NCBI GenBank assembly: GCA_033439265.1
Contig: JAVTVX010000016.1
Location: forward strand, 21,642,701 to 21,706,700
DNA length: 64,000 nucleotides
Direction of reading: 5' to 3'
Source of the DNA: Dillenia suffruticosa
Lineage: Eukaryota; Streptophyta; Magnoliopsida; Dilleniales; Dilleniaceae
Every line of letters starts with the position of its first letter. The first letter of the stretch is position 1. Made by a program: the position numbers and the translations under genes. This document shows positions 1,905-60,144 of the stretch, piece after piece. The notes below the pieces were generated by a model. The model was not told the origin of the DNA and searched no databases. It saw only the letters and a program-made list of their open reading frames with translations.

Positions 1905-1918
1905 TTCACTTAAATATG

Positions 1919-2009
1919 CCGATGAGTATCAACTCAAGTGGTACCAATTTTTCATCTTTTTATAATAGACTTGAGTTCAAGATTCCCCGTGAATCATAAA
2001 AAAAAAAAA
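1919..2009 (+). mobile_element. Ultrashort tRNA-derived SINE-like element with a 14-bp target-site duplication
   Basis: The 91-bp insert has an A-box-like stretch (CTCAAGTGGTA), a B-box-like stretch (GAGTTCAAGATTCC) about 35 bp downstream, and a poly(A) tail. It is flanked by a perfect direct repeat TTCACTTAAATATG at 1905-1918 and 2010-2023. The flanking repeat and A-tail are the marks of LINE-assisted retroposition. The head resembles a tRNA gene promoter, but no cloverleaf was folded. Confidence 0.75.
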
Positions 2010-2242
2010 TTCACTTAAATATGGGAGACTAATTAGGCCCACAAGCTTGGAAGATATTACCTTAGCCCCAAGCAAGCTTATTGGGCTGAGCAGGCGTTAG
2101 ATTCCAAATCAAAAACCATTGAAAAGGTATCTGGAAATTTTCAATAAAAATAAAAAGGAAACTCCCTCCTCTGCCCTCATGCAGAAGTAGAACCGACGCG
2201 TTTCAATCGTGGAAAATGAGCTTCGTTTTCACTCGCAATTCT

Positions 2243-2260
2243 AGGGTTCTATAAAACCCT
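2243..2260 (+). promoter_or_regulatory. Inverted telo-box pair around a TATA box, PHIP1-like promoter
   Basis: AGGGTT at 2243-2248 and AACCCT at 2255-2260 form an 18-bp inverted pair that encloses the start of the TATA-like CTATAAAA at 2249-2256. The ATG lies about 70 bp downstream. In plants, telo-box motifs (AAACCCTA type) are common in promoters of growth and ribosome-biogenesis genes. Function here is inferred. Confidence 0.45.
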
Positions 2261-2328
2261 GAAACGGAAGGCTGAAACTAAAACCTCTCTCTCTGGATTC
2301 CATTGTGCCCTTAAGCATAGCAGGAAGG

Positions 2329-5300
2329 ATGGTGTTATCCAACAAAAAGCTGAAGCAAAAGCTTAGAGCAACTCTAGCTGAATCATTAGTATCAACAACG
2401 ACCAAAATCCAAAACCCTAATTCCGATTTGTCCAATCCAGACACAAGTTCCCAACACCAATCTCTGAAAGACCTCCTAGTCTCAGCAACCCAGAAACCTA
2501 GATTGTCAAAGAGAGAGAAAAGAAGAAAATCTCTCTCTTCAGAAAGCGTTCAAACTGCAAATGCTTTTGAGAGGCAGAGAAAGAAGGAAAAGAAGAAGAG
2601 AAAGAGAGAAAGTGATGGAGAAGAAGCGAAAACTAGAGATACTCAGATGGAACAAACGAAGAAAAGGAAGAAGAAAAAGGGAGAAAATGATGGAGAAGAG
2701 AAAATTGGAGATACCCAGATGGAAAAGAAGAAGAAAAAGCCAATATGGAAGAAGAATCAAGTGAATCATGAGGAAGAGGTTAGAGAGACAATTGAGACCA
2801 ATGAAAGGTATGTATTGGTACAATGTACAAAAAAAATTAGGTTGGTTTTTTTTTGGGGGGGGTGGGGAATTCTAGTGTTAATTTTATGGGCTATATGTCA
2901 TATGTATCTGCAGTGGAAAGAATGAGCATGTTGCTAACAAAATGAAGAGTGAGGAAGAGGCTGAGGGTATTATGGCTGAAAATGGACAAAGTGGTGAAGG
3001 ACTGGCCAGAGGGGCAATTGAGATTAATTTCAGGTATTTAGTGCTTGTGGAAATTGTGTGGTAAAGATTTATGTTGTGATTCAATTGTGTTGCTAATTTC
3101 ATATTCTTCTGCTTGTTCCCCTATATCTTTTTTTTTAAGTTGCTGAGTGACATAGACAATTGAAACCAATGAGAGGGGTATGCGGTAAAGATTTGGAGAA
3201 ATTCTCAATAAATGTTGCTACAAGAAAAAGGAAAAAAATTGATTTAACTATTTTATTTATATTGGTTTGGTCTTAAGGTCGTGATGCCATGATTTTCTTC
3301 TATTTCTTCATCAACATTTTTAAATTGGGAATTTAGAAATTTATGAATGAAAGTTTTCTGCAGAGAAGGAAAGGAGAAAATTGATTTGAATTATTTCATT
3401 TCTTCTGGTTCTGGGTTAATGTGGTTCTGCTATTTGTGATTTGTTCTTTTTCTTTACCAAAGGTTTGTTGATTCTATTGGATGTATAAGTAAGGACATTG
3501 TCGGAGTGATTTTGGTTTGATTAAAAGATGGCGCCCAAAAATTTTCACTTCTCCCTGCTTAGCTAGGGACAGTACAAGAGTTTGAGTTGCTTAAAGTGCA
3601 TGTTAGCGTTTAACGCTCTTACTGAAATTATTGTCAGACTTTCAAAGGAAGTGTATAAACACTTTTGGTTTACTTAAGTGTGTCTCAGATTTTTTTTCTT
3701 TTTTATTTAAAAAAAAAAGGTGTGCTTCTGAAATTTTCTCATGGTTTAATGGGTTGTCATATAATCTGCAGTCAAAAAGATGAAGATGTTGCTAACAAAG
3801 TATATGTTGGAGGTATCCCATACTATTCATCAGAGGAGGATATTCGAAGTTTCTTTGAGGGTTGTGGCACCATAACTGAGGTTGATTGTATGATGTTTCC
3901 TGACAGTGGAAAGTTCAGAGGGATTGCTCTTCTCAGTTTCAAGGTATTTGTGCTTATCTGAGCTCAATTTACTGCTTTCTCACTTGTGACAGATAGAAAA
4001 CATCTTCATAAGGCACTACATTTGGATAAAAGCCTTGTTTTCATCTTAGAATGCCAAGCTCTTGTAATCATTAACGGACTTCATCTGTGATCCTGCATAT
4101 TCACCATGAGATGCAGTCGATAACCCTGCTCGAAAGACCTTACCCTGCCATTCTTGCCCATTTTGTGAGCACATGATGTCTCTTATGCATCTTTGTAGTA
4201 ACACAGCGTAGAAGCCAACACATAGTATCCCTCCTGGCCCTGGGATGACAACTAAGCCAACAATGTCTGATTTTCATCATCGTAGCTTCTGTTCATGATA
4301 GAAAGAGCTACTTCTAGAGGAAACAAAAATCACCGTCTTGCAATTATTTACTTTGACGTATGTGGGTAACAAGCTTTATTTAATAGTGTGTATGCATGTA
4401 TGTGTTTATTGGTGGTTAGACCTTAAGTTGTTTGTTAGGACTCTACTAATGTCTTGGTTGCCAGGGAATAATCTGAATTTTCTTATGCACATTGTAGATG
4501 TGCATTATAACTGTTTTGGCAATTAGTTGATTTAGCCCTCTCATGAAAGAATTTATCGGACGATAAAAATAAACCTCCCTCGTAGACCAAGAATTTGTGT
4601 GATGTTTCACAAGCTTACAACTAAAATGTGAATTGCACTTGAAGTCCTGCATCTTCATGAGTGCAGTAAATCTGGAAAACAAGAGCTTGAATTCTGTTGC
4701 TCAGCTGAGAAAATGCTGTGAATTCGAAGGAATATATTCTATCATCTGTTAAAACAAAAAACAAAAATACACATCTATGCCTCTCTTTAGAAGAAAAATG
4801 TAATGCAGTGTAGTCTTGGGAATTTCTTGAGGACATCACCACCTCAACATCTAACATATCCTAGATAAAATGCATTCACAAATCTGAATTTTTTTCCCAT
4901 TCTCCACTGTTGTCATAGTCGATTGAACAACCATCCTGTATGAGAATATCACATTAAACATCTTCTAGGAAGACCAAAGAGTGAAAAGATGGTCCTTGTT
5001 CCTGGCTACATTGAACTGACAAAATAAGTATGCTATTGGAATGAGACTAGAGATTCCGGTCTTGCAACTCCAACCACATGGTCCTTTTTCTTCTTCAACC
5101 CTGCCATAATTGCTTTTGCCATAGGTCAAATCAGATCATATCATCCTCTTGGGAAAAGCTTACCTATATCACTTTGGGATTATCTTATATGCTTTGATGA
5201 GTAATCTTTTTGAGGGAGGGATCTGCTCATATGTATGATAACGGGCAGCAGTAGCTCACATGGATTATAGGATTTGTGACCTGTATGACTTGTTATTGGA

Positions 5301-6350
5301 GACTGTAGTGAAGCAAAAAAGGTCTATAATTCTCATCAAAATTTTAACCCTTGGATTTATTTTGATTGACGGTAAAATAATCTTCTGTTTGCAGACTGAA
5401 GCTGCAGCTAAAAGGGCCTTGGCACTTGATGGAGCTGACATGTAAGTCAGCCACCACATCAGTCAATTAGGTTTTTCCCTTTCTACCTTGAAGTTGCAAT
5501 GGCATTCTTATCCATTTCAATATGAAACAGGGGTGGGCTGTATTTGAAAATTGTACCATACAAAGCAAATCGAGTTACCAAGGAATCTACTGACTTCTCC
5601 CCAGCTATTGTGGAGGGATATAATAGGATCTATGTAGGAAATTTGTCATGGGATATAACTGAAGATGATCTGAGGAGTCTCTTTTCAGACTGCAGTATAT
5701 CATCCCTTAGGTGGGGAGAGGACAAAGAAACAGGAGAGTTTCGTGGCTATGCCCATGTTGATTTCAATGATAATGTCTCTCTAAAAAAGGCATTAATGTT
5801 GGATCAGAGAGTTGTCTGTGGGAGACCAGTAAGGATCCGAGGTGCTGTTCCTGCAAAAAAAGCTGTGGAACCTCATCCAAAATCTGTTCCAACAAGTGAA
5901 AATGCGGATGCTGGTGGGACAAGCTCCGACAGTGGGAAGAACAGGAGGAAAGCCTGCTATGAATGTGGTGAGCGAGGTCATATATCATCAGAATGTCCAA
6001 AAAAGCAAGCTGCTGATTTTGAATCAGCAGACTCACCTCCAAAATCTGTTCCAGCAAGTGAAAACACAGATGCTGGTTGCTCCAACAGTGGGAAGAAGAA
6101 CAAGAATAGAACATGCTATGACTGTGGTGAGCGAGGCCATATGTCATCAGAATGTCCAAAGAAGGAAGTTGTTGATACTAAATCAGTAGACCCTTCTCCA
6201 GAATCTGTTCTGACAAGTGAAACCGCAGACACTGGTCAGATGAGCTCCAAGAATGGGAAGAAAAACAAGAATAGAACATGCTATGAGTGCGGTGAGCGAG
6301 GCCATATATCATCAGAATGTCCAAAGAAGGAAACTGCTGATGCTAAATAA
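2329..6350 (+). CDS. PHIP1: PHIP1-like RNA-binding protein: lysine-rich N terminus, two RRMs, three CCHC zinc knuckles
   Basis: Five coding exons with GT-AG junctions and continuous frame: 2329-2807, 2914-3033, 3772-3943, 5395-5441 and 5531-6350, giving 545 aa. The ATG at 2329 starts MVLSNKKLKQKLR; the open frame further upstream begins only with GTG. Residues 1-200 are very rich in Lys and Glu and likely hold nuclear signals. RRM1 spans about 209-287 (RNP2-like VYVGGI, RNP1-like KFRGIALLSF). RRM2 spans about 304-380 (IYVGNL; EFRGYAHVDF). Three CX2CX4HX4C knuckles lie at about 415-428, 468-481 and 523-536, each in a repeat of about 54 aa. Arabidopsis PHIP1 binds phragmoplastin and Ran2 mRNA at the forming cell plate. 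That role is carried over by family. Exon 2 appears to be part of a local duplication. Confidence 0.88.
5880..6340 (+). repeat. Three tandem zinc-knuckle repeats inside the last PHIP1 exon
   Basis: Three in-frame repeats of about 53-55 codons each contain a Lys-Ser-Val-Pro or similar linker, an Asn/Lys-rich stretch and a knuckle of the form CYxCGERGHxSSECPKK. Only two knuckle positions vary among the three copies. This suggests recent internal duplication or gene conversion. Confidence 0.8.
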
Positions 6351-7596
6351 TTGCAATTTCCATGATGAATTTTGTTTCATAATTAGTAAAAGGATTAGAC
6401 ATACTGCAATTTGCAAAACTTCTTGAAGTGCCTTTTGCATTCTTGACTCTTTAGGGCAGTAGCAGGAAAATAACCTGTCAATCTGCAATCCATGACCATT
6501 AAGTCTGACATCAAAAGATGTACCTTTTTGGAGTCGGGACCTTTCAATTTAATTTATTTATTTATTTTCTTTGCAGTAACTTATTCAAATGAGGCAATAG
6601 AAGACACATTTTCCCTTAATTTTTTCAGTTTCAGCTTAACTTTGTAGAATTGCATTCTTCTGCGATGCACAAAAACAGAATAAAATAAAATAAAATTCCA
6701 TGAATAAAGAGGGGGAAATCTAATCTAGCCCCAAATTTGTTTTCTCTTCGTTTTTGGGTCCTAAAGTATTGGATTGAGTTACACAATTAGTAAAAAGGAC
6801 TTTAGATTCAGAAAATTATCATCCCAAGAAATTTTACTAGTTAAATTAGCTAAATATGGGTTTCTTCTGTTTGTTTCCTATACAAAAGATGCACATTGAA
6901 CATTCATGAATCTACTAAAGAAGGGTTAGAAATGCGATGCAATTCCAATTCCAAGTACTAGCAAGTTCATATTCATAGCGCAACTTGCAAGTCACGGCAC
7001 GCCATGTTTGGCGGTTGCCAAACCAGGTAAGACAAAGGAGAAAGAATTAATGGTCAGTCAGTCTATTAAGATAAAATATTAAAATTTTTAATTAAATATA
7101 AATTAGAAATAAAAAAAAAAAACCTAAACTAAAAGAAACTATCTTTTAAATAGAATTCTTATAAATAGTCGAATTAGATCAGAGTATCACTTTTGATACC
7201 CGTGTTGAAAAACAAAAAGACAAGAAAGAAGGGCTGGAGTCCCACCTCAATTCTTCAATTTGGCCCATTTTGAGGATTCTCAAAATCACTCTTTAGTGAA
7301 AGTTGTGTTTTTGGAAGGCAGAAACCGTCTTTTCCCCCCCTCTTTTGTGTTCTGTCACGGGACTTTGTTTGACTTTGGAACCATAAAAAAAGGGTAACGT
7401 TGTTGTTCCGAGTTTTTTTATTTCGATCAAATTTTAAAAGGTATAATAATAAAATATTATATTTTTTAATTATAAATATTAGATTTGAGCTATGAAAATA
7501 AAAAAATAAAATTTGAGTGAGCTAATTTCATAATAGATTTTAAAATGTTTAAATCGGATTATTCAGGTGAATCTCAGATTCCGATAGGTGAAAACT

Positions 7597-7632
<36 letters not shown>

Positions 7633-8917
7633 TTCTAGTCATAGGTCCGTGGGCTTCTGGGGTTGGCTTTCATCATCAATTCTATAATGTGCTTGCAGAT
7701 TGTTGAACAACCGTCCCTGCATTATGAATGTATGTCCTGTTCCTACCCACAATCTCCTATTAAATTATTCTCTACCTAATTTCATAGTAACTTGCTTTTA
7801 TGTCATTTCGGTTCATTAGAGGAACCCACAAATGCTTCCATTTTTCAGCCTCCCTCCCTCCCTCTCTCTCAGTGAATGTCTTGTTCCGAACCCACAATCT
7901 CCTATTAAATTATTCTCTACCCAATTCATAGTAACTTGCTTTTATGTCATTTCGGCTCATTAGAGGATCCCACAGATGCTACCCTTTTTCACCCTCTCTC
8001 TCTCTCTCTCATTGACCAAAACAGAAAAACCCCATCAATGCTTTGACCTCAATGAGATGGATGGTGGGGCTAGCCCAATCGTTTCCAACTATGATGTTTG
8101 ATTAATAATAATGGTATATTGTATAATTTTATATAAAAAATATATTCCCACTTTTTCCATTATTATAAGTATGAATAATTACTACATTTTTCTCGCATCT
8201 TATTTAATTTAATAAGTTGTAAATGTCATTATAGATAAATTTTCATTTCTTATTTTCGTAAATTCAATCCAGCAAATGTGATCTCTCCTCTCTCTCTCTC
8301 CCCCCCTCCCCTCCCCTCCCCCAACAACAATCATTTACCTAAATAGAAGAACCCCACCAATTTTTTGACCTCTTTTCCTTTCTACCTTCCATTATGTTAC
8401 ATCTTTTCTTGAAAATAACCAAGTAGCCACATGGGGTGTGGCCGTTCTCATAATCAAACTCATTACCGGGGGACAAGGCAATCACTTGGTAAAGTGGCTT
8501 TTGGAAGCAGCAAGCCAGCAACACGAGAGCATGGAAGATGACCTTACGTTTTATTGCAATTAAACAAGGTTGTAACATGCCACAGTTCAACAATTGTCAC
8601 TTCCTTTCTTATCAAGGATTAATAAACTTTTTCAAGGAAAAGGACACCCCCCCCTTAATTTCATTTTCAACTTGTTTTTGTCTATATATCATATTTACAT
8701 ACATACAAACCTATAAACGTACATGCATAGCCACGCACTAACATGAATGATTAGTAACTATGCAACCCCCAAATCATTCGAAAAGACAATACATAATTCC
8801 ATTTTCTCATGAAAAAACGACTTTTATTTTACAGAAAAATTTTCTCATGTTCGTATATAAAATTTTATTTAAGCGGTATAGAACTAATAATATTAACATA
8901 ATTGTATTTTTTTTATC
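6351..8917. other. Intergenic DNA with microsatellites and a 145-bp tandem duplication
   Basis: No coding gene is supported. The stretch contains an (AT)n run at about 7600-7629, a tandem duplication at about 7735-8020, CT-rich tracts near 7855-7880, 7995-8010 and 8284-8330, and AT-rich spacer. Open frames at 8339-8593 and 8538-8741 lack any recognisable domain. Confidence 0.5.
7735..8020. repeat. 145-bp direct tandem duplication
   Basis: A block containing CCCACAATCTCCTATTAAAT at 7746 recurs at 7891, giving a period of 145 bp. Similarity runs through TTTATGTCATTTCGG and ends in a CT-rich tract in both copies. A shorter third resemblance, around an ACCCCA(C/T)CAAT block ending in TTTGACCTC, occurs near 8350. 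The duplication lies upstream of the SOSEKI gene. Confidence 0.8.
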
Positions 8918-9100
8918 AACGGTCGGTTGGTCTAATAGGATATATTGTTAGAACTCTTAACCAAAGTCACGAATTCGACTCGCAATTTGAGTGTGGAGCA
9001 GATTATATTGGGAGGGTAGCCCCTTAATAGTCACTATAAATCTCGGACCGAATTAATCAGAGTATGACTCTAAATAGTGATCGGTATAATAAAAAAAAGG
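8918..9100 (+). mobile_element. Longer SINE-family copy with imperfect target-site duplication
   Basis: The 183-bp element has an A-box-like GTTGGTCTAATAGGA, a B-box-like GAATTCGACTCGC, a 3' module with CCGAATTAATCAGAG and GATCGGTATA, and an A-rich tail. The flanks are similar: TTGTATTTTTTTTATC at 8902-8917 and TTGCATTTTTTAATC at 9101-9115. Related copies are at 14238, 37405, 61610 and elsewhere. Confidence 0.65.
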
Positions 9101-9515
9101 TTGCATTTTTTAATCTAATGTCTAAGACGACGGTATCATTAACATAACATGTTAACCCTGATGGATTTGCCCTGATTATTACAAAAACAATCCATTAAAA
9201 AACATCTCTTTGGACATTTGAGACTGCAAGAGTCTATATGCAAACAATTTGACAACCCCACTTCCCCCAACTACAGAGACATAAATTGTTTCTTTGTTAT
9301 ATCCCATAATAAGGTTGTTCTTGCTCCTATCCTTGCCCTCACAAGTGAGGCATAACATTTGGCATCATCATGCAGTCCCACAGTCCTAAAAATCATATAC
9401 AAATCCACATACATGCACATATGTCTCTGGATATATCTGTGTACATATCTACGTGCATATCCTCCATTCATGCAGACTCCCCATTAAATATTCTTCACTT
9501 TCTCCACATTGTCCC

Positions 9516-9563
9516 CTATAAATTGGACACTCATCATGTCAGTTCCAAAACCATCACCAAAAA

Positions 9564-9602
<39 letters not shown>
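9516..9602 (+). promoter_or_regulatory. SOSEKI gene core promoter and (CT)n leader
   Basis: A TATA-like CTATAAAT lies at 9516-9523. The presumed 5' UTR then ends in an uninterrupted (TC)n tract at 9566-9602, only six bases before the ATG. Pyrimidine or GAGA tracts in plant leaders can bind BPC-type factors and affect expression. That effect is inferred here. Confidence 0.55.
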
Positions 9603-9603
<1 letters not shown>

Positions 9604-9608
9604 AGGAA

Positions 9609-10907
9609 ATGGCAGTGAGTTCTAAAGGATCAAGAACAACAGAGATTAGCGCGATATCGAAGAAATATAGAGAGAGAGAAACAAGTCCAGAAAGAACCAA
9701 GATCTGGGTCGAACCAAAACCACATTACACTCATAGAACTGTTCCTGTTGTCTATTATCTTTCTCGGAATGGTCATTTGGATCATCCTCACTTCATTGAA
9801 GTCCCTTTCTCTTCTTCTCATGGACTCTATCTCAGAGGTAATATTTCAATACACTCATACTCTTCTTTTTCCTGATGAAAAGAGAGGGGCTTTACCTGCA
9901 TTGCCACTACTGCGAGGGCCTCTTCGAACCCATATTCACTGATGAACAATTGTTCTGATATTTTGCAGATGTGATTAACAAACTGAGCGTTCTTCGAGGG
10001 AAAATCATGCCAAGCATGTACTCTTGGTCTTCGAAAAGGTAAAATTTCAACCCCAAATCTCCACAAATTCCAATTCACCTCTTCCCCCCGCCCAAAACTA
10101 ATCAGAATTCTCGAAATTTGCAGGAGCTACAAGAACGGATTCGTGTGGCAAGATCTAACGGAGAACGACTTCATTTATCCAGTTCACGGTCACGAATACG
10201 TCCTCAAAGGCTCCGAAATCGTCGACAACTTCTCCAGTTTCAGATCCTATGACTCAATTTCATCGGACAAAGACAAACCCAACGCCTCGAATAATTCGAA
10301 TTCGAATCATTCGAATTCCACATCGCTCGATTCCAACGAGTACAAGATCTACAAGGTGGAATCCGCCGGAGATCTCGCCGGAAAAGCCTTGAATGCGGCG
10401 ACGCAGACTGAGGAGGAGACGAAGACGAGGAAGAATAAGAAGAGTGATCGGATTCAAATACGTCGTCGTTATGAAGTTGAAGAAGAAGAAGAAGAAGAAG
10501 AAGAAGAGGACGAGTTGTACGGACACTTCACCATTGATTTGAGCAAAGACGAGATTCCACCTAGAGCGTCGAATTCTAGTCCGGAGGAGGAGTTGGACTC
10601 GGCGAGTCGAGTTGGAGAGCCGGTGATGAATCGGGGGAGAAACATTGTTGACTCGGTTGAGGTGGGGCTCGGGCCTGCTGATATCCGAAATCAGACGGCT
10701 AAGAATGAGTTTCATTCTCATAGTGCGAGAATGAAGGCGTCGACGGTTTTGATGCAGTTGTTCACTTGTGGTTCCGTTTCTGTTAAAGACTCAACGGTCG
10801 GGAATGGACGAGGGTGCACGGTGAGGTCGCAGTCTGCGAGGATTAGCAAGGCTGAGGTGGGGAGAGCGATTGGACAGGCGGAGGATTGTGGCGAGGTTGC
10901 TCTGTAA
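9609..10907 (+). CDS. SOK: SOSEKI (DUF966) polarity protein with DIX-like domain
   Basis: Three exons: 9609-9837, 9969-10038 and 10124-10907, joined in frame to 360 aa. The DIX-like domain covers about residues 42-130 ([46 protein letters not shown]). In SOSEKI proteins this domain polymerises and drives polar accumulation at cell edges. An Asn/Ser-rich linker follows, then a run of Glu at about 217-228 from a GAA repeat. The family's conserved C-terminal block with [14 protein letters not shown] is at about 301-324, near the end of the protein. The N-terminal 40 residues are basic and variable. The upstream leader is a (CT)n tract. I think it corresponds to Arabidopsis SOK4/SOK5 by neighbourhood, but the exact paralogue is not settled. 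Confidence 0.9.
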
Positions 10908-11857
10908 TTGTCTTCCGAACCGTAAACGACGTCGTTTCTTATTTTTCCTCTTTTTTCCCTTTTAACCTTTTTCTTTTCCTTCTCTTCAAATGGAGATTTA
11001 AACTTGAAGAACCAAAATCGTGAATGATCATGACATCCTTGTATCTTATACCTTGCAATGGTCCTACCCTACATCAAACTTAAGTCTAAAGACCAGTGTG
11101 CAAAGTGCCCATTTCAAAGAAAAAGAAAATAGATCCTAAAAAAAAAAAAAAAAAGAATTTTTCAAAAATATCTGAAAATACGTTCAATATATCAAAATAT
11201 ATTAAATATAATTTTAGCGAAACATAAAATTAAGATAAAAGGGTTTTTTTTTTCTTCTTTTGTCGATTTCAGTTATTTAATTAATTTTACAAACACAAAT
11301 GTTGGGTTTTTTTTTTCCCTAGATCTTTCGGTATTCGGGATTTCGTCCCGACTAATCCGGAATCGACCTGATTATCGGGTCTTATTTGAGGAGAAAGTCT
11401 TCTAATATTATTTTTTTCGTATCTAGTGGGAGTCAAATTCCTGATCTGATTAAGGGACGAAAATATTCTTCCTATCTATATCAATAAGTACCGATAAAAA
11501 TATACTATCGTCATAGCGAGACTGACGTAGGGTATTGCATTCAATAGATATTTGAGCAACAAGGGTGTGCTTTATATTTGAACTTGTTTACTCATTCAAA
11601 TAGGGAAACAAAATGGGCACATGAAGGAGACTAATACAGTGCTTAAATTCAACTTTTGCATCTAATACTCGATTTAAAATTAAATTCTTTTATTATTTAA
11701 ATTGAACTCGAACAATGTTACATGATTCGAATTTGTAATACATAAGAAATAATTTTAACTTTGCTCATTTTATTATTTTATAAGCAAATACACTTAAAAA
11801 GAGGTAAAAATTTAGGGAAAACAATATTTAACCCTACCTTTTCCCTTCTCTTGTACG
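10908..11857. other. 3' flank of SOSEKI gene and AT-rich intergenic DNA
   Basis: The first 200 bases probably include the 3' UTR. About 11310-11520 resembles a minus-strand copy of the longer SINE family, with GACTAATCCGGAATCGACC. No other gene or element is clear. Confidence 0.35.
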
Positions 11858-12217
11858 ATATGTTGCACGGAAAAAAAAATGGAGAAATAGAAATGAAAAT
11901 GATTTGAATAAATACATAAATATAAAAAAATATAAGGATTTTTATATAAATATTAATTATGTTATGAAAATAATAAAATAACCATATTTTATAAAAAAAA
12001 AATCTAAAATAATCAAATATGTAATTATTAATTATAAGATAAATAATATAAAAATAAAAATTGTAATTAAATAAAAAATTAATTCATTAAATATGAAAAA
12101 AATTGTAAATATAAAAAATATAATAATTTTTATATAAATATTAATTAATTTAGCGTATTGAAATGTTTTTTAAAAATGAGAAAATATTAGTATTAAAAAA
12201 TTTCCATGTATCACAGC
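11858..12217 (+). mobile_element. AT-rich MITE-like element, hAT-like family copy 1
   Basis: About 360 bp. The left end reads ATATGTTGCACGGAAA and the right end CCATGTATCACAG, which are imperfect inverted copies of the 17-bp termini of the well-bounded copy at 28625-29025. The interior shares its AT-rich core (AAATATTAATTA). No matching target-site duplication was found, so this copy is older or its ends are eroded. Confidence 0.6.
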
Positions 12218-12558
12218 CGGTACATGTCTCTAAGGGGACAATCTAGTGGTATAAACTTTTTCTCCCAAATCTAGTGATTCTAGATTTAAATTTTTGTATA
12301 ATAAAAAAAATAGCCGATACACGCCCCTTTTAAAGCAAATATGAGAATACATATAAAATCATATATAAGAAATTTTAATTTTCTAATTTAATATAATATA
12401 TAAGAGGAGAGATCAATCGACAACGATAAGAGAAAGGAAAATCATATAATATTTTCTCTTATGACAATTGAACTATTTTAATCCGACATATGTGAATACA
12501 TTTTCTTTAAAACATTTTGAGAATTTAGGATTGAAGTTTTAAAATATATAATAAATAA

Positions 12559-12673
<115 letters not shown>

Positions 12674-12893
12674 ATATATATAAATCACCTAAAATTCTTT
12701 GACTTAACTTTTTCCTTTCAACAAACAACTACAATTTCGTAACCCATTAAACGACAGGTAAAGCTGCGTTTCGGTGCAGCCTTATTACCCGACAACCCAA
12801 CGGACCCAAAAGAAAAGCCTCTAAATTCTGAGAAAATTTCAAGGATTAGGATTTAAAGGGTTCTGCATCAAATTCCCTGAAACTTTTCAAGAA

Positions 12894-13142
12894 ATGGAAG
12901 CGAAGAAGCTTCTCAAGGACAAAATGCTCTGGTTCGCTTCATTCCTCATTGTTTGGGCTGCTGCACTCCAGGTTTCATCTCTCTGTCTCTCTCTCTCATA
13001 TGGTTGAAGTTGAAGCTGAATTTGAAGTTTTTCATTATTTTGGGTTTAGGGGCACATGATGTGGATGCAAAGGCAAGACGCTTTCAAGCAGAAATTTGGA
13101 ACCCCAAATGAGAACAGTGATCAAAAGGACCAGCGCACTTAA
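12894..13142 (+). CDS. Small 56-aa single-pass membrane protein, unnamed
   Basis: Two exons: 12894-12971 (26 codons) and 13050-13142 (30 codons plus stop TAA), separated by a 78-bp GT-AG phase-0 intron. The protein starts MEAKKLLKDK and has one hydrophobic segment at about residues 11-25 (MLWFASFLIVWAAAL). A polar, charged C-terminal tail follows with HMMWMQRQDAFKQKFG. No signal cleavage site is obvious, so it is probably a small anchored protein. I do not recognise a named family. The precise splice sites, positive-then-hydrophobic layout and a TATA-like element at about 12673-12684 make a real gene likely. It is close to and converges on the defensin-like gene, with about 360 bp between stops. 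Confidence 0.65.
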
Positions 13143-13818: not shown

Positions 13819-13894
13819 TGTAAACCTCGGTGATGATAATCGAATACTACTGATTGATCAGAGCACTGAATAAACAGAATGAGTCAAAATATTG

Positions 13895-14111
13895 TTGGTA
13901 TGTTGGTTTTTATAGAGCGATTAATGTAAATCTTGCTAATAAATGTAAATTTTGATAATTCATTTGGTAGGTGATATTTTAACAGAATTTTTTTTAATAT
14001 ATTTTTGGTATGTTGGTTTTTATAGAGCGATTAATTTAAATCTTGCTAATAAATGTAAATTTTGATAATACATTTGGTAGGTGATATTTTAAGAGAATTT
14101 GTTTTAATGTA
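13895..14111 (-). promoter_or_regulatory. Tandemly duplicated core promoter of the defensin-like gene
   Basis: A block of about 107 bp at 13895-14001 is repeated at 14005-14111 with a 110-bp period and few mismatches. Each copy contains, on the minus strand, a TATA box CTATAAAAAC (about 13906-13915 and 14016-14025). The near copy lies about 90 bp upstream of the ATG at 13818, a good distance for a real promoter. The far copy could give a second start site. Confidence 0.7.
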
Positions 14112-14237
14112 TTTTTTTTCTTTGTAATTCCTCTTTCCAAATAATAGTAAGTGATATCATTAGCAATGTTACCAAGTTAACGAGACAATCAGATCATACT
14201 AAGTCAAGAAATGATTTTGCGGAAATATATATAAAAC

Positions 14238-14415
14238 ACCGACGGACATTTGATCTAGTGGGATGTGGTGCTAGATCTCTTAACAAAGTTCCTGAATTTG
14301 ACTCGCGGCTTGGGTATGGAAAAAACTACGTTGAGAGGGTAGTCTCCTTAAACGAGTCACTGCAAGTCCCGAACCGAATTAGTCGGAGTATAATTTTGGA
14401 TACCGGCTGGTATAG
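14238..14415 (+). mobile_element. Longer SINE-family copy
   Basis: The element shows an A-box-like TTGATCTAGTGGGA, a B-box-like GAATTTGACTCGC, an AACTACGTTGAGAGGGTAG block, and the 3' module CCGAATTAGTCGGAGTATAA ending GGCTGGTATAG. It is flanked by TATATATAAAAC at 14226-14237 and 14416-14427. The low-complexity flank makes this duplication weaker evidence than at other copies. Confidence 0.65.
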
Positions 14416-14427
14416 TATATATAAAAC

Positions 14428-17107: not shown

Positions 17108-17122
17108 CTTAATGTATTGTTT

Positions 17123-17294: not shown

Positions 17295-17309
17295 CTTAAT
17301 ATATTGTTT

Positions 17310-19580: not shown

Positions 19581-19616
<36 letters not shown>

Positions 19617-21169: not shown

Positions 21170-21180
21170 GTATCAGGTTA

Positions 21181-21268
21181 CATTTTTTTTTTTTTTTTAC
21201 AAGGATTTGAACTGGGATTACCAAATTGGGGAGGGGCATTTGTACCACTTGACTGTCCCCTTGGGGAC
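21181..21268 (-). mobile_element. Ultrashort SINE-like element, minus strand
   Basis: The 88-bp insert, read on the minus strand, has an A-box-like CAGTCAAGTGGTAC, a B-box-like CAGTTCAAATCCT and a poly(A) tail of about 16. A perfect direct repeat GTATCAGGTTA flanks it at 21170-21180 and 21269-21279. Confidence 0.75.
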
Positions 21269-22034
21269 GTATCAGGTTATGTTGTGTCATGCTCTGTTTG
21301 ATGTTTGTGCCTGTGTTTTATAGGTCGCTGTTTGGATTGTGGATTGAGTGGGTTTCCCCCCCCCCCCCCCCAAATTTTGAAGGTATTCGAAGAACTTTGT
21401 TTGAAGAATGGCCCAAAATTGCCTCAAGACTACTATAGCATATCCTGATTAGCTAATTTACTGCACAAAAAAATTGTATAACAACATCAATCTTAAGTTG
21501 AAATAAGCCATTTTAGACCCCCTAAGAAATAGTAAATGGTAGAGAACCATATAAGTTATTTCTTAGGGTGGAGGTGATTACTAGCTACTAGAGATTGATC
21601 ATTTACATAAAAGGTTATGCAAAAGCCCTAGCATGGGTTCTGAGGGTGGACTCTTAACTATAGAGCTACAAAGAGAGTTTGCTAGCTTGACTCTCTCATC
21701 CATTCCCTTCTGACCCATGCAAGCTAGAAATTTTGCATGTCAAGCAAATTTATTGGTTAGAGTAAATTCTTCATTAAGCACTCCTAAAAGACTAATGCTT
21801 GACAATCTTGTACTCTGTGGCTTTATTTGTAGAAAGCTCCGTAACTGATATGGCATGCACCCTACCGAATGTGGATGAAAAAGTCAAATTAGGACAAGTC
21901 ATGCAATGAATTGTTTTGGAAAAATACTAGTGCTCTTGCATGTGTGAGATTATGCTTGGGGCAAAGGATCTATATACAAGTTCATATGTCGATGTCTAGG
22001 TAGATTACTTCTTGTGGACAATAGTTGTTATATA

Positions 22035-22122
22035 TATATATTTTTTTATACAGAAATTCGAATCTGAAATCTCTAGATCGGAGAGGGGGATTTTGATCAC
22101 TAAGCCATCCTTTTGGGGACTC
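22035..22122 (-). mobile_element. Ultrashort SINE-like element, minus strand
   Basis: The element of about 88 bp has, on the minus strand, GGCTTAGTGATCAA (A-box-like), AGATTCGAATTTC (B-box-like) and an A/T-rich tail. Flanks AATAGTTGTTATATA (22020-22034) and AATAATTGTTATATA (22123-22137) differ at one base. Confidence 0.7.
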
Positions 22123-22474
22123 AATAATTGTTATATAAGAACATAAAATATATAACCAAGCCCTCACTACTTTACCTTTTCTTAGTTCATATGTTTATTC
22201 AAACTTGTTACATTTTGCACCGAAGGGAGGAGAACACCGGCAGTCGCTCCCCTGAAAATTTTAAGAAAACGCTTACGTATGTAATTTCAAAACTTATAAT
22301 TTCAGATATTATTTGCTCTTTAAAAATTATAACTCCTTTTTGAAACTATAGCATCAAATGCATATTGTACTTCATTCTCTATATAAATTGCTATTTTCTG
22401 CCATAATTTTTGCACACAAATTGCAAATCACACACACAATGTGCGTGTTGTAGAAAAATGAATGAGGTTATTCG

Positions 22475-22695
22475 CTAGATTGGTCTCGTGGTAAGATACT
22501 TGGTAAAGCACTTCCATGACATTAAGAGGTTGAATCTCTCTTACTGCAGTTTGAGCTTGATGGATAATGTATGTCCCCAGCCAAATTTGGTGCCTTGGGG
22601 GATCACTCCAGATGAGAAGGGCGGAGGAGAAATTGTAATTGTCATGCTTGCGCGACCAACCAGTGTCTGATTTTATCTATACAGGTCATTTTATT
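22475..22695 (+). mobile_element. Possible further tRNA-derived SINE-like sequence
   Basis: The start has an A-box-like TTGGTCTCGTGGTAAGA and, about 45 bp on, a B-box-like GAGGTTGAATCTC. The body contains a CCTTGGGGGATCACTCCAG block. Its end, GATTTTATCTATACAGGTCA, resembles sequence inside the following tandem array at 28146. No target-site duplication was found. Confidence 0.4.
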
Positions 22696-23349
22696 GTGGG
22701 ATATTGAGAAGCACCCGTTTGGAAGAGATGAAGCTTATATTTGTTAATATTGAGTTTGATTCATAACAAGAAGATTAGGGACATGGTCCTAGTGATTGTC
22801 ATGTTTAAGCTGTTTATCTTTTCCATCCTTCTAACATTTTTATATAATCTATCGGGTATTTTATGGAGTTAATAGAGATATGTTATCTATTAGGATCGAT
22901 ATGATTCGAGAAAAATGGACAATCCAGTGACTTCCTTGCTTATGCCAGTTTGCTTGTTTGACGGGTGTTCAAGTTTGGAATACAAAGAAACTCAAGATGA
23001 AATGATCTGACTGAAAAGAAAAAAGCTACACGTATCTCATTTACTTGTTCCTTCATCTTTTGCTCATCTCTTGGAAAGCCCTTCCTCAACTCGACCAATC
23101 CTTCTTGAAATTAAAAATTTATATTAAGGATAAATTAATATATATTTGAAATTATGGTTCTAGAAGATGAAATTTTTAAACAGCAAACAACATTTAAAAT
23201 TATAATTTATAAAATAAAATTATAAATATCTAATATTTTTCTCAAAATTTGAGGGGAACCCCTCTGTCTGAATGGGAAGTGCTTTTCCTAGTAAAGTTTC
23301 AAATAACAAATTTGAATTGGGTCAGTTATGTGTGCCCACACGCATATCG

Positions 23350-23510
23350 GACGCTTTTTCTTTATCGTTCGTTGAATTATCGATATTTAAAATTATATTT
23401 CAATTAATTCAGTTTAAATATCTATAAAAATTTTTAAGAAACGATTCTCTTAATATAATTTTTTTTTAATTTTAAATTTAAAATTTAATTAAACGACATA
23501 ATATTCATGT
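23350..23510 (-). mobile_element. Old minus-strand copy of the longer SINE family, present in all array units
   Basis: The reverse complement of the SINE 3' module is recognisable here (ATTTAAAATTATATTTCAATTAATTC). Matching copies occur at about 26365-26490 and 29445-29560. Presence at the same place in all three units means it inserted before the array was duplicated. Confidence 0.45.
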
Positions 23511-24049
23511 TTTTTTTTTTTTTTTTTGGTAAGACACGAAATCCATGTCTTGTTAAAATAAAAAATGTCCGTTGGTCTCTCTCCATCCCCCACATCTTAC
23601 TTTGTGTGCGCCCACACGCATGATCTCTCTCTCACATTTATGTTGCGCGGCTGCGCCCACACGCAGGAGTTGCGTGCATAGAGAAACAAGAACCAGTCTC
23701 GGGTGGTTCACATCATTTCCATTTCCAAGTCGCCAACTAACAGCTCGAGAAACCTTCCCACAATATGACTTCTTTCCTTTTCATAATAACCAGAGTAGTA
23801 TTGACTTCTTTCCTTTTCACCAAAAAAAAAAAAATAACCAGAGTATGCCCATATTACTGACTTTGTTTGCTGATGGCAATTTTTGCTTGACTTTATAGGC
23901 TACGTTCTTGATTTCTCATTCTCTCTCTCTCACGCATGCTATGTAAGGTTCAAAGAATTTGTAGGTAATAGAATTCACTTCTCTAACGTCACTATTTTTG
24001 TTCTATTTTTCTCTTGGTAGGTTTCTCTTGATGGAAAGCAACATGTATT

Positions 24050-24132
24050 TTATATATATATATAAGAAGTCTTGAACTCAAAATCTTTAACAGGAAGGAT
24101 GATAGTGACAGTTAAGTTATCGTTCGTCAACA
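24050..24132 (-). mobile_element. Ultrashort SINE-like element inherited by array units 1 and 2
   Basis: On the minus strand the element has TAACTTAACTGTCA (A-box-like) and GAGTTCAAGACTTC (B-box-like). Flanks CAACATGTATT (24039-24049) and CAACATGCATT (24133-24143) differ at one base. A diverged copy at the equivalent place in unit 2 (about 27012-27076) indicates insertion before that duplication. Confidence 0.6.
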
Positions 24133-25440
24133 CAACATGCATTCTTATCATATGGGTATTCTTAACCTTGTTCAATCTGTTGGGGGGAATGCTAATATTA
24201 TTCTTGGCCACCGATTTTATTGTTTAAGTAATATCTAATTTATTCCTCAACTAGTGAAATGAAATCAGAAATTCGAATTCCTCAAAATCTTAATAAATCA
24301 AAATACAAAATGCTAAAATTTTTTAAAATTTTACTAAATAGTCGATATTCGTTCTATCTGATATTTAATTGTCACCATCTACGAAAGCATTGAAACCAGA
24401 GAATTCTCATGGTTGGCTTCCTTAGGACCAAATTTGTGACATACACACCCATTTCTTTTTGAATTATGGAGTAGTCATTGTATGGAGAAATTGGAGGGGA
24501 ATTGTGAGATGAGAGTACTCTCTAAAAAATGAAACCCAATAGAAAGTGTATATTATTATAATCTTCTATTGGTGTCTAAACTGAATCCTTAGGAACAAAT
24601 TTATACTTCCTTTTTAATAAAATTACTCTGGATTTTCCTCAAGTAATCAATTTTTACAAGGTTATTGTTGGAAAAGACCCCAAATCCTCTCCTTTCTTTT
24701 GGGTTAGTTTACTATTTGATCATTCTTGCAAAATACCAAACAAAATTTGTCCTTCAGTCATAGGGCATGACACTGGACTGGACTTGTAGGGGCTCTGGAT
24801 ACTACTTGAAAGTGATCATTAATTAATTGGGAAAAGTAGGACCAGCCAACCGCATAGAAACTTCTCATCAAAGTCATCAAATGTTTCTTGTCATTTGGGA
24901 CATGGAACACACATCCGGTGTTTGTGATATGGTCCAAATGAGAAAATAGAAAAAATGTTGAACTGATTGTGACCCTTTTTGATGCATTCAAAATTACCTC
25001 TTCTAGAATTATTCTTACAGTTAGGACCCAAAGTACAACTCAATCACTGAATCGATGTTAACATATTTTGATTTTTGAATCCGTACTGGTATTATAACAA
25101 GAGTTTTTATCGATTAATTTGGTAGTGATGAGTTAATGTCTGATTTTCTTTATACAGGTTTTTTTAATGTGGGACTAAAAGCTTGAGACAGACAGATTAC
25201 CTTTGAAGACGTTATGGGTGAATGCCGATGGTGACTGTTTTCTTCATTGTAAAGTCAACATGAGAGATCAGGTATGAAAAGTTTGAGTGTTAATAAAAGA
25301 CCAGAAAAATTTTAACGTACAATGTATCCATGTGTAGTTAATAGGGAGTTGTGGGAAATTATGATCGGGGTTGTGAGAAAGAGAAGACTTTTGCTCCAAG
25401 GGTTTGTATTAATATTAGGTACAAAGTTGCAATTATCATT

Positions 25441-25604
25441 ATCAAACTCTTTTATTTGAGTAGTCGGACATTCTACTTCCTTTAACAGAGATCTCGAATT
25501 CGAATCCTGAAAATGATAAAAAATGATTTGGAATGACAAATTTTTAAACTCGAACTGAATTAATCAAATAAAAACCCGAATACTAGTGATGAAAAAAAAA
25601 ATTA
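25441..25604 (+). mobile_element. SINE insertion proven by an empty site in the next array unit
   Basis: The 164-bp insert has a B-box-like GAATTCGAATCC, the family 3' module (CGAACTGAATTAATCAAATA, then CCCGAATACTAGTGATG) and an A-rich tail. A perfect 12-bp direct repeat GCAATTATCATT lies at 25429-25440 and 25605-25616. Unit 2 has the uninterrupted site GCAATTACCATTGCAAG at about 28393-28409. This defines the element ends exactly. Confidence 0.85.
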
Positions 25605-28600
25605 GCAATTATCATTGCAAGTTAGCTCGGCAATGTTGTTGCCAATAACAAAGTGATTGAATTGGGTCCTGTTTATTTGAAACTCTACTGCGAAAAGCTC
25701 CTCCCGTCCTTTCTTGCAAGCCTAATGCTTTTGATTATTGAGAAGCACCAATTTGGAAGAGATGAAGCTTATATTTGTTAATATTGAGTTTGATTCATAA
25801 CATGAAGATTAGGGATATGGTCCAAGTTACTATCATGTTTATGCCATTCTCTTTTCCATCCTTTTAACATTTTATATCTTCGATCAGATATTTTACGGAG
25901 CTAATAGAGATATGTTATTCATTAAGATTGATATGACTCGCGAAAAATGGACAATCTAGTGACTTCCTTCCTCATGCCAAGTTTGCTTGTTTGACAGGTG
26001 TTCAAGATTGGAATACAAAGAAACTCAAGATGAAATGATCTGACTGAATAGAATATGTCATTTACTAATTCCTTCGTCTTTCGCTCATCTCTTGGAAAGC
26101 CCTTCCACCAATCCTTCTTGAAAAATTTTTTCACTCGGGTAAAATTAAAAATTTATATTAAGGATAAAACATAATATATATTCGAAATTATAGTCTTAGA
26201 AGATGAAATTATTTTAACAACAAACAACATTTAAAATTATAATTTATAAAATCAAATTATAAATATCTAATATTTTTCTCAAAATTTGAGGGGGCACTCC
26301 GATCTATCCCTATTTGTATCATTGTATTTGAGTGTGACCACGGACTTCTCCTCTCTCTTTCTCTTTTTTGTTAGGTTATCGTATTTGAAATTATGATCTG
26401 ATTAATTCATTTCTAATGTTTACCTAATTCTTTTTAGGATGTAACTCTTTTAATATAAATTTTTTATTTATAAATTTTACGATTTAATACTGTCCCATCA
26501 AAATGACTCTCGGTTAGTCCCCTTCACATCCTACCTTCTGTGGGGCGCCCACACATATATGGGAGTATTGAAGTGCAGGATCTCTCTCGCACATTTATGT
26601 TACGCGGCTGCGCCCACACGCAGGAGTTGCGTACATGGAGAAACAAAAACTGGGCACGGTTAGTTTACTGTCACATCATTTCCGTTTCCAAGTCGCCAAC
26701 TAACGGCTCGAGAAACCTTCAAACAATATGACTTCTTTCCTCTTCATAATATCCAAAGTATGGCCATATTACTGACTTTATTGGCTGATGACAATTTTTG
26801 CTTGACTTTGTAGGCTACGTTCTTGACTTCTTTCTCCTCTCTCCCTCTCTCTCGCATGACATGTGAGGTTCAAATAAATTATGGGATTGATTATATGGTA
26901 ATAAAAGAATTTGTGGGCAATGAAATTCACTTCTCTAATGTCCCTATTTTTGTTCTATTTTTCTCTTGGAGGAAAAAAATACAAAATACATAATATTTTG
27001 TAACATGTACTTTTTTTTTAACCAAAGTTTTAACTCGAAATCTTTAAAGGATAAGCGATGGTATCAGTTAAGACACAAAATGCACTCTTATCATATTGGT
27101 ATTCTTAACCCTCTTCGTACTCTTGAGGGAAATGCTGATATTATTCTGGGCCACCAATTTTATAGTTTTAGTAATATCTGATTTATTCCTCAACCAGTGA
27201 AATGGAATCAGAAATTCAAGTTTCCCTTCTCACATCACTAACAGCCGGCGAAATAATGATCACCACAACTTCTGATCATCATTCAAAATTTTTCAAAATT
27301 TTATTTAATAGTAAAATTTTATATAGTCGATGTTCGATCTACCTGATATTTAATTGTCACCATCTACCAAGGTATTGAAACCAGATCATTCTCATGGTTG
27401 GCTTCCTTAGGACCAAATTTGTAACATACACATCCATTTCTTTTTCAATTATGGAGTAGTCATTGCATGGAGAAATTGGAGGGGAATTGTGAGATGAGAG
27501 TACTCTCTAAAAAATAAAACACAATAGAAAGTGTATATTGTTATAATCTTCTATTGGTGTCTAAATTGAATCCTTAGGAACCGGGTTGTACTTCCTTTTT
27601 ATTAAAATTACTCTGGATTTTCCTCAAGTTTTATCAATTTTTATAAGGTTGTTGTTGGAAAAGACCCCAAATCCTCTCCTCAATTTTGGGTTACTTTACT
27701 ATTGATCATTCTTGCAATTTGCAAAATACCAAACAAAATTTGTCTTCTAATCATAGGGCATGACACGGGGTTGGACTTGTAGGGGCTATGGATACTACTT
27801 CAAAGTGATCATTAATTGATTAGGAAAAGAAGGACCAACCAAATTTCATAGAAATTTCTCATCAAAGTCATCAAATGTTTCTTGTCATATGGGACATGGA
27901 ACACACATCCGGTGTTTGAGAAATGGTCCAAATGAGAAAGAATTGAATGAGGAAATTGAAAAATGTTGAACTGATTGTGACCCTCTTTGATGCATTCATT
28001 TTATTGCCAAAATTTATATCAAACCCTCTTCTAGAATTATCTTACAGTTAGGCCCGAAGTACAAGAGTTTGATTTTTGAATCCGTACTGATATTATAACA
28101 AGAGTTTTTATCGATCCATTTAGAAGTGATAAGTTACAAGGGTTTGATTTTATCCATACAGGTCATTTTTAATGTGGGACTAAAAGCTTGAGACAGATAG
28201 ATTACCTTTGAAGACATTATGGGTGAATGCCGAAAGTCTGAAAAGCTTGAGTGTTAACAAAAGACCAGCAAAATTTTAACATACAATGAATCCATCCGTG
28301 GTTATTAGGGAGTTGTGGGAAAATATGATTGGGATTTGTGAGAAAGATAAGACTTTTGCTCCAAGGGTTTGCATTAATATTAGGTACAGAGTTGCAATTA
28401 CCATTGCAAGTTGCTTGGTAATGTTGTTGCCAATAACAAATTGATTGAATTGGGTCCTGTTTATTTGAAACTTCACTATGAAAAGCACTTCCCGTCCTTT
28501 CTTGTAATCCTAATGCCTTTGATTAAAAAGCACCCATTTGGAAGAGATGAAGCTTATATTTGCTAATATGACATGAAAATTAGGGATATGGTACAAGTTA

Positions 28601-28624
28601 TTGTCATGTTCAAGCCGTTATCAT

Positions 28625-29025
28625 CTATGTTGCATGAAAACAGAAATGGGGAAACAGAAACGGATACGGATACGAAACGATACTGTAAAACTACATTTTG
28701 TAAAAATATAAGAAATGGAAACGTGGATAAATATGTAAATATAAAAAATATAAAGATTTTTACATAAATATTAATTATCTTCCAAAAATAATAGAATAAC
28801 CATATTTTATAATAAAAATAAAAAATAATCAAATATATAATTATTAAACATAAGATAAATAATATAAAAAATAAAAATTATTAAATATGAAAAAATATGT
28901 AAATAAAAAAATAGAAGGACTTTTGTATAAATATTAATTAATTTAACGTGTGAAAACGTTTGAGAGTTGAAAAACGTTTCGAAAACTGAGAAACGCTAGT
29001 ATTGAGAAGTTTTCATGCATCATAG
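28625..29025 (+). mobile_element. 401-bp MITE-like element with 17-bp terminal inverted repeats and 8-bp target-site duplication
   Basis: Left end CTATGTTGCATGAAAAC and right end GTTTTCATGCATCATAG are inverted repeats with one mismatch. GTTATCAT flanks both sides (28617-28624 and 29026-29033). Units 1 and 2 of the array lack the element at the equivalent site near 22808 and 25845, which confirms the boundaries. The interior is AT-rich and codes for nothing. An 8-bp duplication suggests the hAT superfamily. Confidence 0.88.
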
Positions 29026-30449
29026 GTTATCATTTCCATCCTTTTAACATTTTATATAATTGATTAGGTATTTTACGGGACTAATAGAGATATACTATCT
29101 ATTAAGATCGATATAATTCGAGAAAAATGGACAATCTAGTGACTTTCTTCCTTATGCCAAGTTTGCTTGTTTGATGGGTGTTCAAGTTTGGAAAACAAAG
29201 AAACTCAAGATGCAATGATCTGACTGAATAGGAAAAAACTACATTTGAAATTATAGTTCTAGAGTATGAAATTCTTAAACAACAAACAACATTTAAAATT
29301 ATAATTTATAAAATAAAATTATAAGTATCTAATATTTTTCTCAAAATTTGATGGGCACCCCTAGCTGTCCCCCTTTGTATCATTGTATTTGTGTGTGCCT
29401 ACATGCATGACGGACGCCTTCTCTCTCTCTTTCCTTTTTATTTGACTATCAGTATTTGAAATCATAGTTTAACTAATAGAGAACAGTTCTCTCATTATAA
29501 TTTTTTTTATTCTTAAGTTTTGAAACCAAAATTTAATTAAGTGATCTAATATTTCTTTCCATTAAGATGTTTGTCCGATGATCTCTCGCTTCCCACTTCC
29601 AACCTTTCTGTGCATGATCTCTCTCTCACATTCATGTTGCGCGACGGCGCCCTCACGCAGGAGTTGAGTACATAGAGAAACAAAAACCGGGCATGGGTGG
29701 TTTACTTTCACATCGTTTCCATTTCCAAGTAGCCAACTAACAGTTCCGAGAAACCTTCCAACAATATGACTTCTTTCCTCTTCATAATATATATCCAAAG
29801 AATGGCCAAATTACTGACTTTGTTTGCTGATGCCAATTTTTACTTGACTTTATAGGTTACGTTCTTGACTTCTCTCTCTCTCCCCCACGCATGCTATGTG
29901 AGGTTCAAATAAATTATGGAATTGATCATGTAGTAATAAAAGAATATATGGGTAATGGAATTCACTTCCCTAACGTCACTATTTTTTTTTTCTATTTGTC
30001 TCTTGGTAGGTTTCACTTTCTAGAAGAAAAAAAAAATACATAATACATAATATTTTTCTTGTTCCTAACACCAGTATCCGAATCTATATTTTGATTAATT
30101 CGGTTCGAATGTTTACGAATATCCTGTTTAGAAAGTGATTTTCCCATAAAATTATGCAACATGCATGCTTATCATATATTCTTAACCTTGTTCATACTCT
30201 TGAGGAAAATGCCGATGTTATTCTTGCCCACCAACTTTATAGTTTTAGTAATATCTGATTCATTCCTCAAATAAATTGAATCCTCTCCTCTGGTGTATAT
30301 TATTATAATCTTCTATTATTATAATACTCTCTTTTTTATTAAAATTACTCTGGACTTTCCTTAAATTATCAATTTTTATAAGGTTATATTGTTGGAAAAG
30401 ACCCCGAATCCTCTCCTCACTTTTGGGTTATTACAATTGATCATTCTTG

Positions 30450-30538
30450 TATCACATTCTTTTAGATTGAGTGGTCAAACACTTTATCCCTTTAACCAAA
30501 TATCTCTCGAGCAAAACCTAAATATAAAAAAAAAAAAA
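30450..30538 (+). mobile_element. Ultrashort SINE-like element with empty sites in units 1 and 2
   Basis: The 89-bp insert has GATTGAGTGGTCAAAC (A-box-like), a B-box-like stretch around CTCTCGAGCAAAACC and a 13-base A tail. Flanks TGATCATTCTTG (30438-30449) and TGATCATTCATG (30539-30550) differ at one base. Unit 1 near 24717 and unit 2 near 27704 read through as a single TGATCATTCTTGCAA, so this copy is young. Confidence 0.8.
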
Positions 30539-30965
30539 TGATCATTCATGCAAAATATCAAACAAAATTTGTCTTCTAGTCATAAGGCATGATACTGGGC
30601 TGGACTTGTAGGGGCTATGCAAACTACTTAAAAGTGATCATTTATTGATTGGGAAAAGTAGGACCAACCAAATTGCATAGAAATTTCTCATCATAGTCAT
30701 CAAATGTTTCGTCATGTGGGGCACGGAACACACATCTGGTGTTTGTGATATGGTCCAAATGAGAAAGAATTGAATGAGGAAATAGAAAAATGTTGAAGTG
30801 ATTGTGACCCTCTTTGATGCATTCATTTTATCTCCAAAATTTATATAAAACCCTCTTCTAGAATTATTCTCATGGTTGGGGCCTGTAGTACAACTCAATC
30901 AATATCGACATATTTTGATTTATGGATCCGTATTGACATTATAACAAGAGTATTTATTGATTGAA

Positions 30966-59922: not shown

Positions 59923-59979
<57 letters not shown>

Positions 59980-60030: not shown

Positions 60031-60097
60031 CCTACTTTTCCCATCCTCCATACTAATATTTTTTTTTTCTAAAAAATATATATATATTGTTTAATTA

Positions 60098-60144
<47 letters not shown>

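Follow-up and report, generated by a model that had tools for sequence, protein, structure and literature searches.

Short SINE families without a body, and a head-only copy of a longer SINE, in the genome of Dillenia suffruticosa

In mammals, simple SINEs such as the rodent ID element consist of a tRNA-like head that runs directly into an A-rich tail, with no body in between; the ID element is about 75-100 bp long and is bordered by target site duplications (TSDs). Two groups of short elements in the genome of Dillenia suffruticosa, referred to here as families A and B, share this size, the head leading straight into an A-rich tail, the lack of a body and the TSDs. They differ from ID in their plant host, in that no clear parent tRNA was found and, for family A, in a 14-bp palindrome (GTCCCCAAGGGGAC) at the 5' end. 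Plant SINEs are presented in a passage of PMC9033089 as elements of a few hundred bp, and the tRNA-derived plant families TS, Au, SB and p-SINE, as far as the passages of PMC9033089 and PMC3747384 describe them, carry A and B boxes and TSDs; most of the families listed there (over half) also have an A tail. The passage of PMC3747384 further states that the LINEs of flowering plants belong almost only to the L1 clade and that more than half of flowering-plant SINEs end in poly(A); as only three SINE/LINE pairs are known in flowering plants, a relaxed recognition of poly(A) was proposed there. Families A and B have the A and B boxes and the TSDs in common with these plant SINEs but possess no 3' body, their tail starting 7-16 nt past the B box. 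The simple-SINE layout, known from mammals, is unusual for a plant so far as the literature compared goes. Among the titles and beginnings of abstracts that were searched (several searches returned mostly off-topic items) we found no body-less plant SINE, and an earlier description is possible.

The window, i.e. the whole stretch of 64,000 nucleotides that was analysed, is AT-rich (34% GC), and loose matches to the B box are common in it. Its open reading frames match the SOSEKI, 2-oxoglutarate dehydrogenase, C2H2 zinc-finger and zinc-knuckle families, and a tandem 159-bp repeat (2.9 copies, 5876-6348) lies inside a zinc-knuckle + RRM reading frame. At 59935-60144, a (GA)n tract is separated by about 120 bp from a (TC)n tract with which it is able to pair; Rfam reports sub-threshold matches to miRNA precursors there, most likely a simple-repeat artefact.

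The first-pass annotation of this DNA had described five ultrashort SINE-like elements as members of one family. A check of the sequence found all five at the positions given, together with their direct repeats, with the corrections that E2, E3 and E4 lie on the minus strand and that E3 ends at 22121 instead of 22122. E1 (1919-2009, plus strand; TSD 1905-1918 / 2010-2023, 14/14) is a short SINE of family B, E2 (21181-21268; TSD 21170-21180 / 21269-21279, 11/11) and E3 (22035-22121; TSD 22019-22034 / 22122-22137, 15/16) are short SINEs of family A, E4 (24050-24132; TSD 24039-24049 / 24133-24143, 10/11) is an older short SINE with a weak assignment to family B, and E5 (30450-30538, plus strand; TSD 30438-30449 / 30539-30550, 11/12) reads as a head-only copy of a longer SINE. 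Rescoring confirmed that the repeats are perfect at E1 and E2 and have one mismatch at each of the other three. With 138 right flanks that begin at A runs as background, the TSDs reach p values of 0.007 (E1, E2 and E3), 0.029 (E4) and 0.022 (E5). Perfect direct repeats of at least 11 bp at a spacing of 85-125 bp number 10 in the window versus 2.0 in shuffles, an excess that proves little because two of the 10 are the TSDs of E1 and E2 and three belong to a single tandem array at 13889-14116. Of the A and B boxes ascribed to all five copies, the B box of E5 and the A box of E4 are poor by eye. Functional tRNA genes were ruled out, as ARAGORN reported none in the window and there was no Rfam match at the gathering score; weaker, sub-threshold Rfam matches were queried as well and contained no tRNA. 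The proposed single family did not survive, since profile models split the elements into A, B and the E5 type. Six further short copies were located in the window, one of family A and five of family B.

Family A is a real, dispersed, body-less SINE family, and for it the original idea of minimal retroposons with A and B boxes, an A tail and TSDs holds. It includes E2, E3 and a copy at 12225-12311 (plus strand) that is new relative to the first-pass annotation and has a decayed TSD (about 12215-12224 / 12312-12321, 9/10). A genome search with E2 returned 163 candidates. Forty of these were scored, E2 itself included, and all 40, spread over many contigs, reached E <=2.4e-11 and spanned at least 70 of the 77 nt; among the non-self matches, the best identity was 88% and the best E value 1.7e-19. 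The copy set analysed below comprises the 36 sequences fetched from the 39 non-self matches. The search for short copies that had been proposed as a check thus gave short elements in 36/36 cases, each with a unit of about 77 bp followed by an A-rich tail, and each carrying a version of GTCCCCAAGGGGACAGYCTAGTGGTACAAA...TTCAAATCCTTGTACAACC ahead of that tail.

Pairwise comparison of these copies showed that core matches core in 630/630 pairs. The flanks, compared for the 36 copies of family A and 4 of family B, match in 1/780 pairs downstream (68-103 nt each) and 1/780 pairs upstream; it is the same pair on both sides (L026/L030), i.e. a duplicated locus. As the cores match and the downstream flanks do not, family A has no shared body behind its tail. 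A run of at least six A residues starts 7-16 nt past the B box in 34/36 copies and the remaining two are A-rich, so that the tail directly follows the promoter region, as in a simple SINE, in all 36 fetched copies of family A, and likewise in 4/4 fetched copies of family B. The boxes themselves have partly diverged: the strict A-box motif is present in 27 copies and missing from nine, and the strict B box GTTC[AG]A is kept in 18 and altered in the other 18. An exact 28-base pattern of the family has 21 matches in the genome versus 0 for the reversed-pattern control; this figure is not a copy count and would be in keeping with a family that is old and diverged. When the model was made from 20 genome copies alone, E2, E3 and the copy at 12225-12311 scored 75.6, 42.0 and 46.7 bits, respectively, the best controls being 19.8 and 15.6 bits. 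The consensus of about 77 bp includes the 5' palindrome and a 3' end reading TTGTACAACC. The palindrome is perfect at, e.g., 21255-21268 and is kept in many copies, and a 5' hairpin in the family-A RNA is possible.

For family A, the true TSD scored higher than every mismatched pairing of flanks in 22 of 29 rows of one set and in 13 of 16 rows of another. The 29-row set includes 9 copies from the window and from stretches placed by hand, and L026 and L030, the duplicated locus, fall just outside the cut in it (p 0.04); among its 22 winning rows the TSDs of L028 and L039 are A-rich and that of L031 is ambiguous. A TSD filter was passed by 32 of 42 rows; L030, a paralogue, was left out, as were rows whose TSD was weak or A-rich. 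In the filtered rows the TSDs are 9-21 bp long (11-18 bp in 29/32), the elements measure 78-113 bp with the tail, and in 26/32 the 5' end is no more than 1 nt away from the predicted start. The TSDs have an A-rich start, a feature that cannot be fully separated from the tail.

Family B is a second short SINE family, older and less well supported than A, to which E1 belongs and E4 only weakly. A direct genome search with E1 gave 5 candidates in all, including 4 other genome copies, every one of them short and with an A tail. When left out of the model, E1 scored 49.2 bits (best control 10.8), and E1 together with four window copies ranged over 24.8-49.2 bits (best controls 8.6-13.5); a model made from the four genome copies only gave E1 54.7 bits, its best control being 8.1. 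Another window copy lies at about 61121-61208 (plus strand), with 34.9 bits when left out and 33.2 bits with the four-copy model. Three family B-like copies follow, at 43099-43180 (plus strand; 37.5 and 16.5 bits, respectively), 35165-35246 (minus strand; 25.1 and 10.9 bits) and 38560-38641 (minus strand; 24.8 and 7.7 bits), the last of which falls below the best control of the four-copy model and is not separated by it. E4 scored weakly when left out (16.7 bits versus a best control of 14.0) and had no match with the four-copy model. Since a tandem paralogue of E4 is found in the next unit of the array (27008-27078, minus strand, array unit 2), the E4 insertion predates the duplication; array unit 3 has another insertion near this spot. 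Most family-B TSDs in the window have decayed. Of seven rows, representing six insertions, four are not significant, namely the E4 paralogue and the copies at 61121-61208 (p 0.49), 43099-43180 (p 0.63) and 35165-35246 (p 0.12), and a fifth, at 38560-38641, is A-rich only.

The same DNA also houses SINEs of a more conventional kind. A SINE-like family of about 180-190 bp is represented in the window at 8921-9100, 14244-14426, 37415-37596 and 61612-61790, and across 224 kb, made up of the window and the sampled stretches, its model gave 20 matches above 18 bits, while the best control reached 9.8. Its 3' domain (CGAACCGAATTAGTCAG...GATACC) also occurs behind other heads, and it aligns with two window relatives of E5; it was not seen in A, B or E5 itself. 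The strict motif of this domain is present in both of these window copies and in 2/20 genome relatives of E5. The 3' domain of the longer SINEs may resemble the Angio-domain of angiosperm SINEs. A 37-bp 3' Angio-domain of angiosperm SINEs is mentioned in the passage of PMC9033089.

E5 shares its 5' end and head with SINEs of about 165-200 bp from the same genome, which in addition carry a body. Its head has 21 other matches in the genome, and all 20 that were fetched share the 5' end and continue, by eye, into a body of about another 100 bp; a body model trained on 10 of them was found in 10/10 of those held out, the weakest at 18.3 bits. By the best direct repeat, 15 of the 20 relatives are 171-198 bp long, with several low TSD scores, and the other five (L082, L088, L089, L091 and L095) have no credible TSD. 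As these relatives possess a body, E5 fails as a simple-SINE family and its proposed place among the short elements had to be given up: its fetched relatives are longer SINEs, an outcome that the first-pass annotation had itself named as a refutation. Two long relatives with the same 5' end are situated in the window, at 1690-1868 (minus strand, 179 bp; TSD 1676-1689 / 1869-1882, 14/14) and at 25441-25604 (plus strand, 164 bp; perfect 12-bp TSD). The former is part of a region, 1494-1882, in which two long SINEs stand in tandem in the same orientation and one 14-bp target occurs in three direct copies (1494-1507, 1676-1689 and 1869-1882), as if the second SINE had inserted into the TSD of the first.

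For E5, and in two sister units of the array, an empty site is available. On both sides of E5, the 30.4-kb unit can be aligned with those at about 24.7 and 27.7 kb, and the site is clean at 24660-24800 and 27645-27785, in agreement with the earlier observation that the element is absent there. The TGATCATTCTTG-like target is present once in each empty unit and flanks E5 in two copies, which constitutes direct evidence of the E5 insertion.

What is directly seen in the copies is that they are dispersed, have constant ends, A tails and TSDs and share no body; for E5 there is the empty site as well. On this basis we suggest that families A and B are very probably short SINEs in which some 75 bp of promoter-like sequence precede an A tail, most likely copied by way of Pol III and L1, and that E5 arose by internal priming. 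Judging from the motifs, Pol III would transcribe the short elements from their A and B boxes, and the RNA would carry or gain an A tail. At a nicked target, this RNA could then be reverse-transcribed by a plant LINE of the L1 type whose choice of template is relaxed, leaving the TSD; this would be target-primed reverse transcription by a LINE that needs little beyond poly(A). A SINE without a body fits the proposal of relaxed poly(A) recognition (PMC3747384). In the case of E5, the RNA of a SINE of about 180 bp may have been primed internally at an A-rich stretch after the B box, so that the body would be lost and the head followed by A residues would remain. The tail of E5 starts where most of its parents have, by eye, an A-rich AAAATGATAAAAAA-like stretch, a few nt past the B box, and it is this position that internal priming would explain most simply; a transcription stop or a later deletion could yield the same sequence.

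It might be argued that every short element derives from a longer SINE by a 3' truncation of its own and that there is no short source gene. Truncation is true in effect for E5, and this DNA is rich in longer SINEs, as the 20 matches in 224 kb show. Independent truncations would scatter, whereas the 36 copies of family A end at about one point and share nothing behind the tail. Moreover, the E5-type body model matches only one of them (L039), upstream of the short element, and none of the copies examined is a long form of A or B. We regard this explanation as very unlikely. Still less credible, to the point of being negligible, is the view that the elements are chance lookalikes of A and B boxes beside A runs. 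The boxes are short and, in AT-rich DNA such as this window, loosely matched ones are easy to find, but chance does not account for genome matches down to E 1.7e-19, for the TSD controls, the flank comparison and the empty site of E5, or for left-out profile scores above those of reversed and shuffled controls. Chance resemblance is refuted for family A, E1 and E5; the margins are weaker for E4 and the copy at 38560-38641.

Alternatively, the cellular RNA of a tRNA or tRNA-like gene could have been copied directly, so that the elements would be retropseudogenes and not self-perpetuating. A tailed tRNA retropseudogene likewise consists of a head and an A tail, and the 3' half of the family-A consensus reaches a score of 32 with one tRNA-Lys (357-kb contig), the shuffle maximum being 30. 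This similarity is suggestive at most, in a comparison that covered 16 genes of five isotypes identified by ARAGORN (Lys 4, Cys 6, Ile 4, Asn 1 and Tyr 1). Against these genes family B scored 24; its shuffles reached 22 at the 95% level and 31 at most. The copies share a consensus that includes the 5' palindrome and the TTGTACAACC 3' end, as a SINE source gene predicts, and the same is predicted of the finding that neither program recognized a tRNA in the copies given to it: ARAGORN found none in 5 of the 36 family-A copies, and Rfam gave no tRNA covariance match in 7 of the 36. An origin as retropseudogenes is therefore unlikely, and we retain the reading of A and B as SINE families. As there is no tRNA covariance match, the head appears tRNA-like by its boxes rather than by its fold. 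Of the tRNA-like head proposed at the outset, then, the boxes stand, and the comparison with tRNA genes established no particular tRNA as parent. A cluster of tRNA-like genes on contig C1 near 1.31 Mb (L006-L008), in which ARAGORN reads a gtag anticodon, perhaps consists of intron-containing tRNA-Tyr genes.

The abundance of the short families was estimated from 16 stretches of 10 kb (160 kb in total) that were picked by hand, two of them near the window and one of those two with a family-A match. With the genome-copy model, 4 clear family-A copies (33-66 bits) were found; two more candidates, at 15.6 and 18.5 bits, do not stand out from the best controls, which reached 19.8 and 15.6. Four copies per 160 kb correspond to about 15,000 copies of family A in the 596-Mb genome, an order of magnitude only, with a Poisson 95% interval of roughly 4,000-38,000. 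Family B has 3 copies above 15 bits in the same 160 kb, two of which scored no more than 15.1 and 18.9 bits in the left-out test, where the controls had 12.4 and 11.6.

Elements of this layout may easily escape annotation. The B-box motif of the plant SINE finder SINE-Finder is presumably GTTC[AG]A, and it was used in this form in the comparison below. The passage of PMC8825457 prints another motif and requires 20-500 nt from the B box to the tail. Applying this spacing and the A-box motif given there as a rule, we estimate that 3/36 family-A copies would pass; by this approximation, family A lies mostly outside the search rule, which points to an annotation gap.

One can go further and propose that flowering plants harbour an overlooked class of body-less SINEs, with some 10,000 copies in this genome, which arise repeatedly from longer SINEs and are mostly skipped by structure-based searches that ask for at least 20 nt from the B box to the tail. 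Each family would comprise hardly more than a Pol III promoter with A residues. Such elements would originate when priming takes place at an A-rich patch shortly after the B box, in the manner that E5 suggests. This wider proposal is tentative, and we would put it at somewhat less than an even chance. If true, body-less SINEs would be natural evidence that the plant L1 machinery needs only poly(A).

E5, together with its empty site, provides an example of a long SINE yielding a head-only copy, and the short families indicate that a mobile element may get by with very little sequence. Our observations suggest that in plants retroposition can require no more than a Pol III promoter with an A tail, which bears on the recognition of poly(A) alone by L1 elements, as put forward in the passage of PMC3747384.
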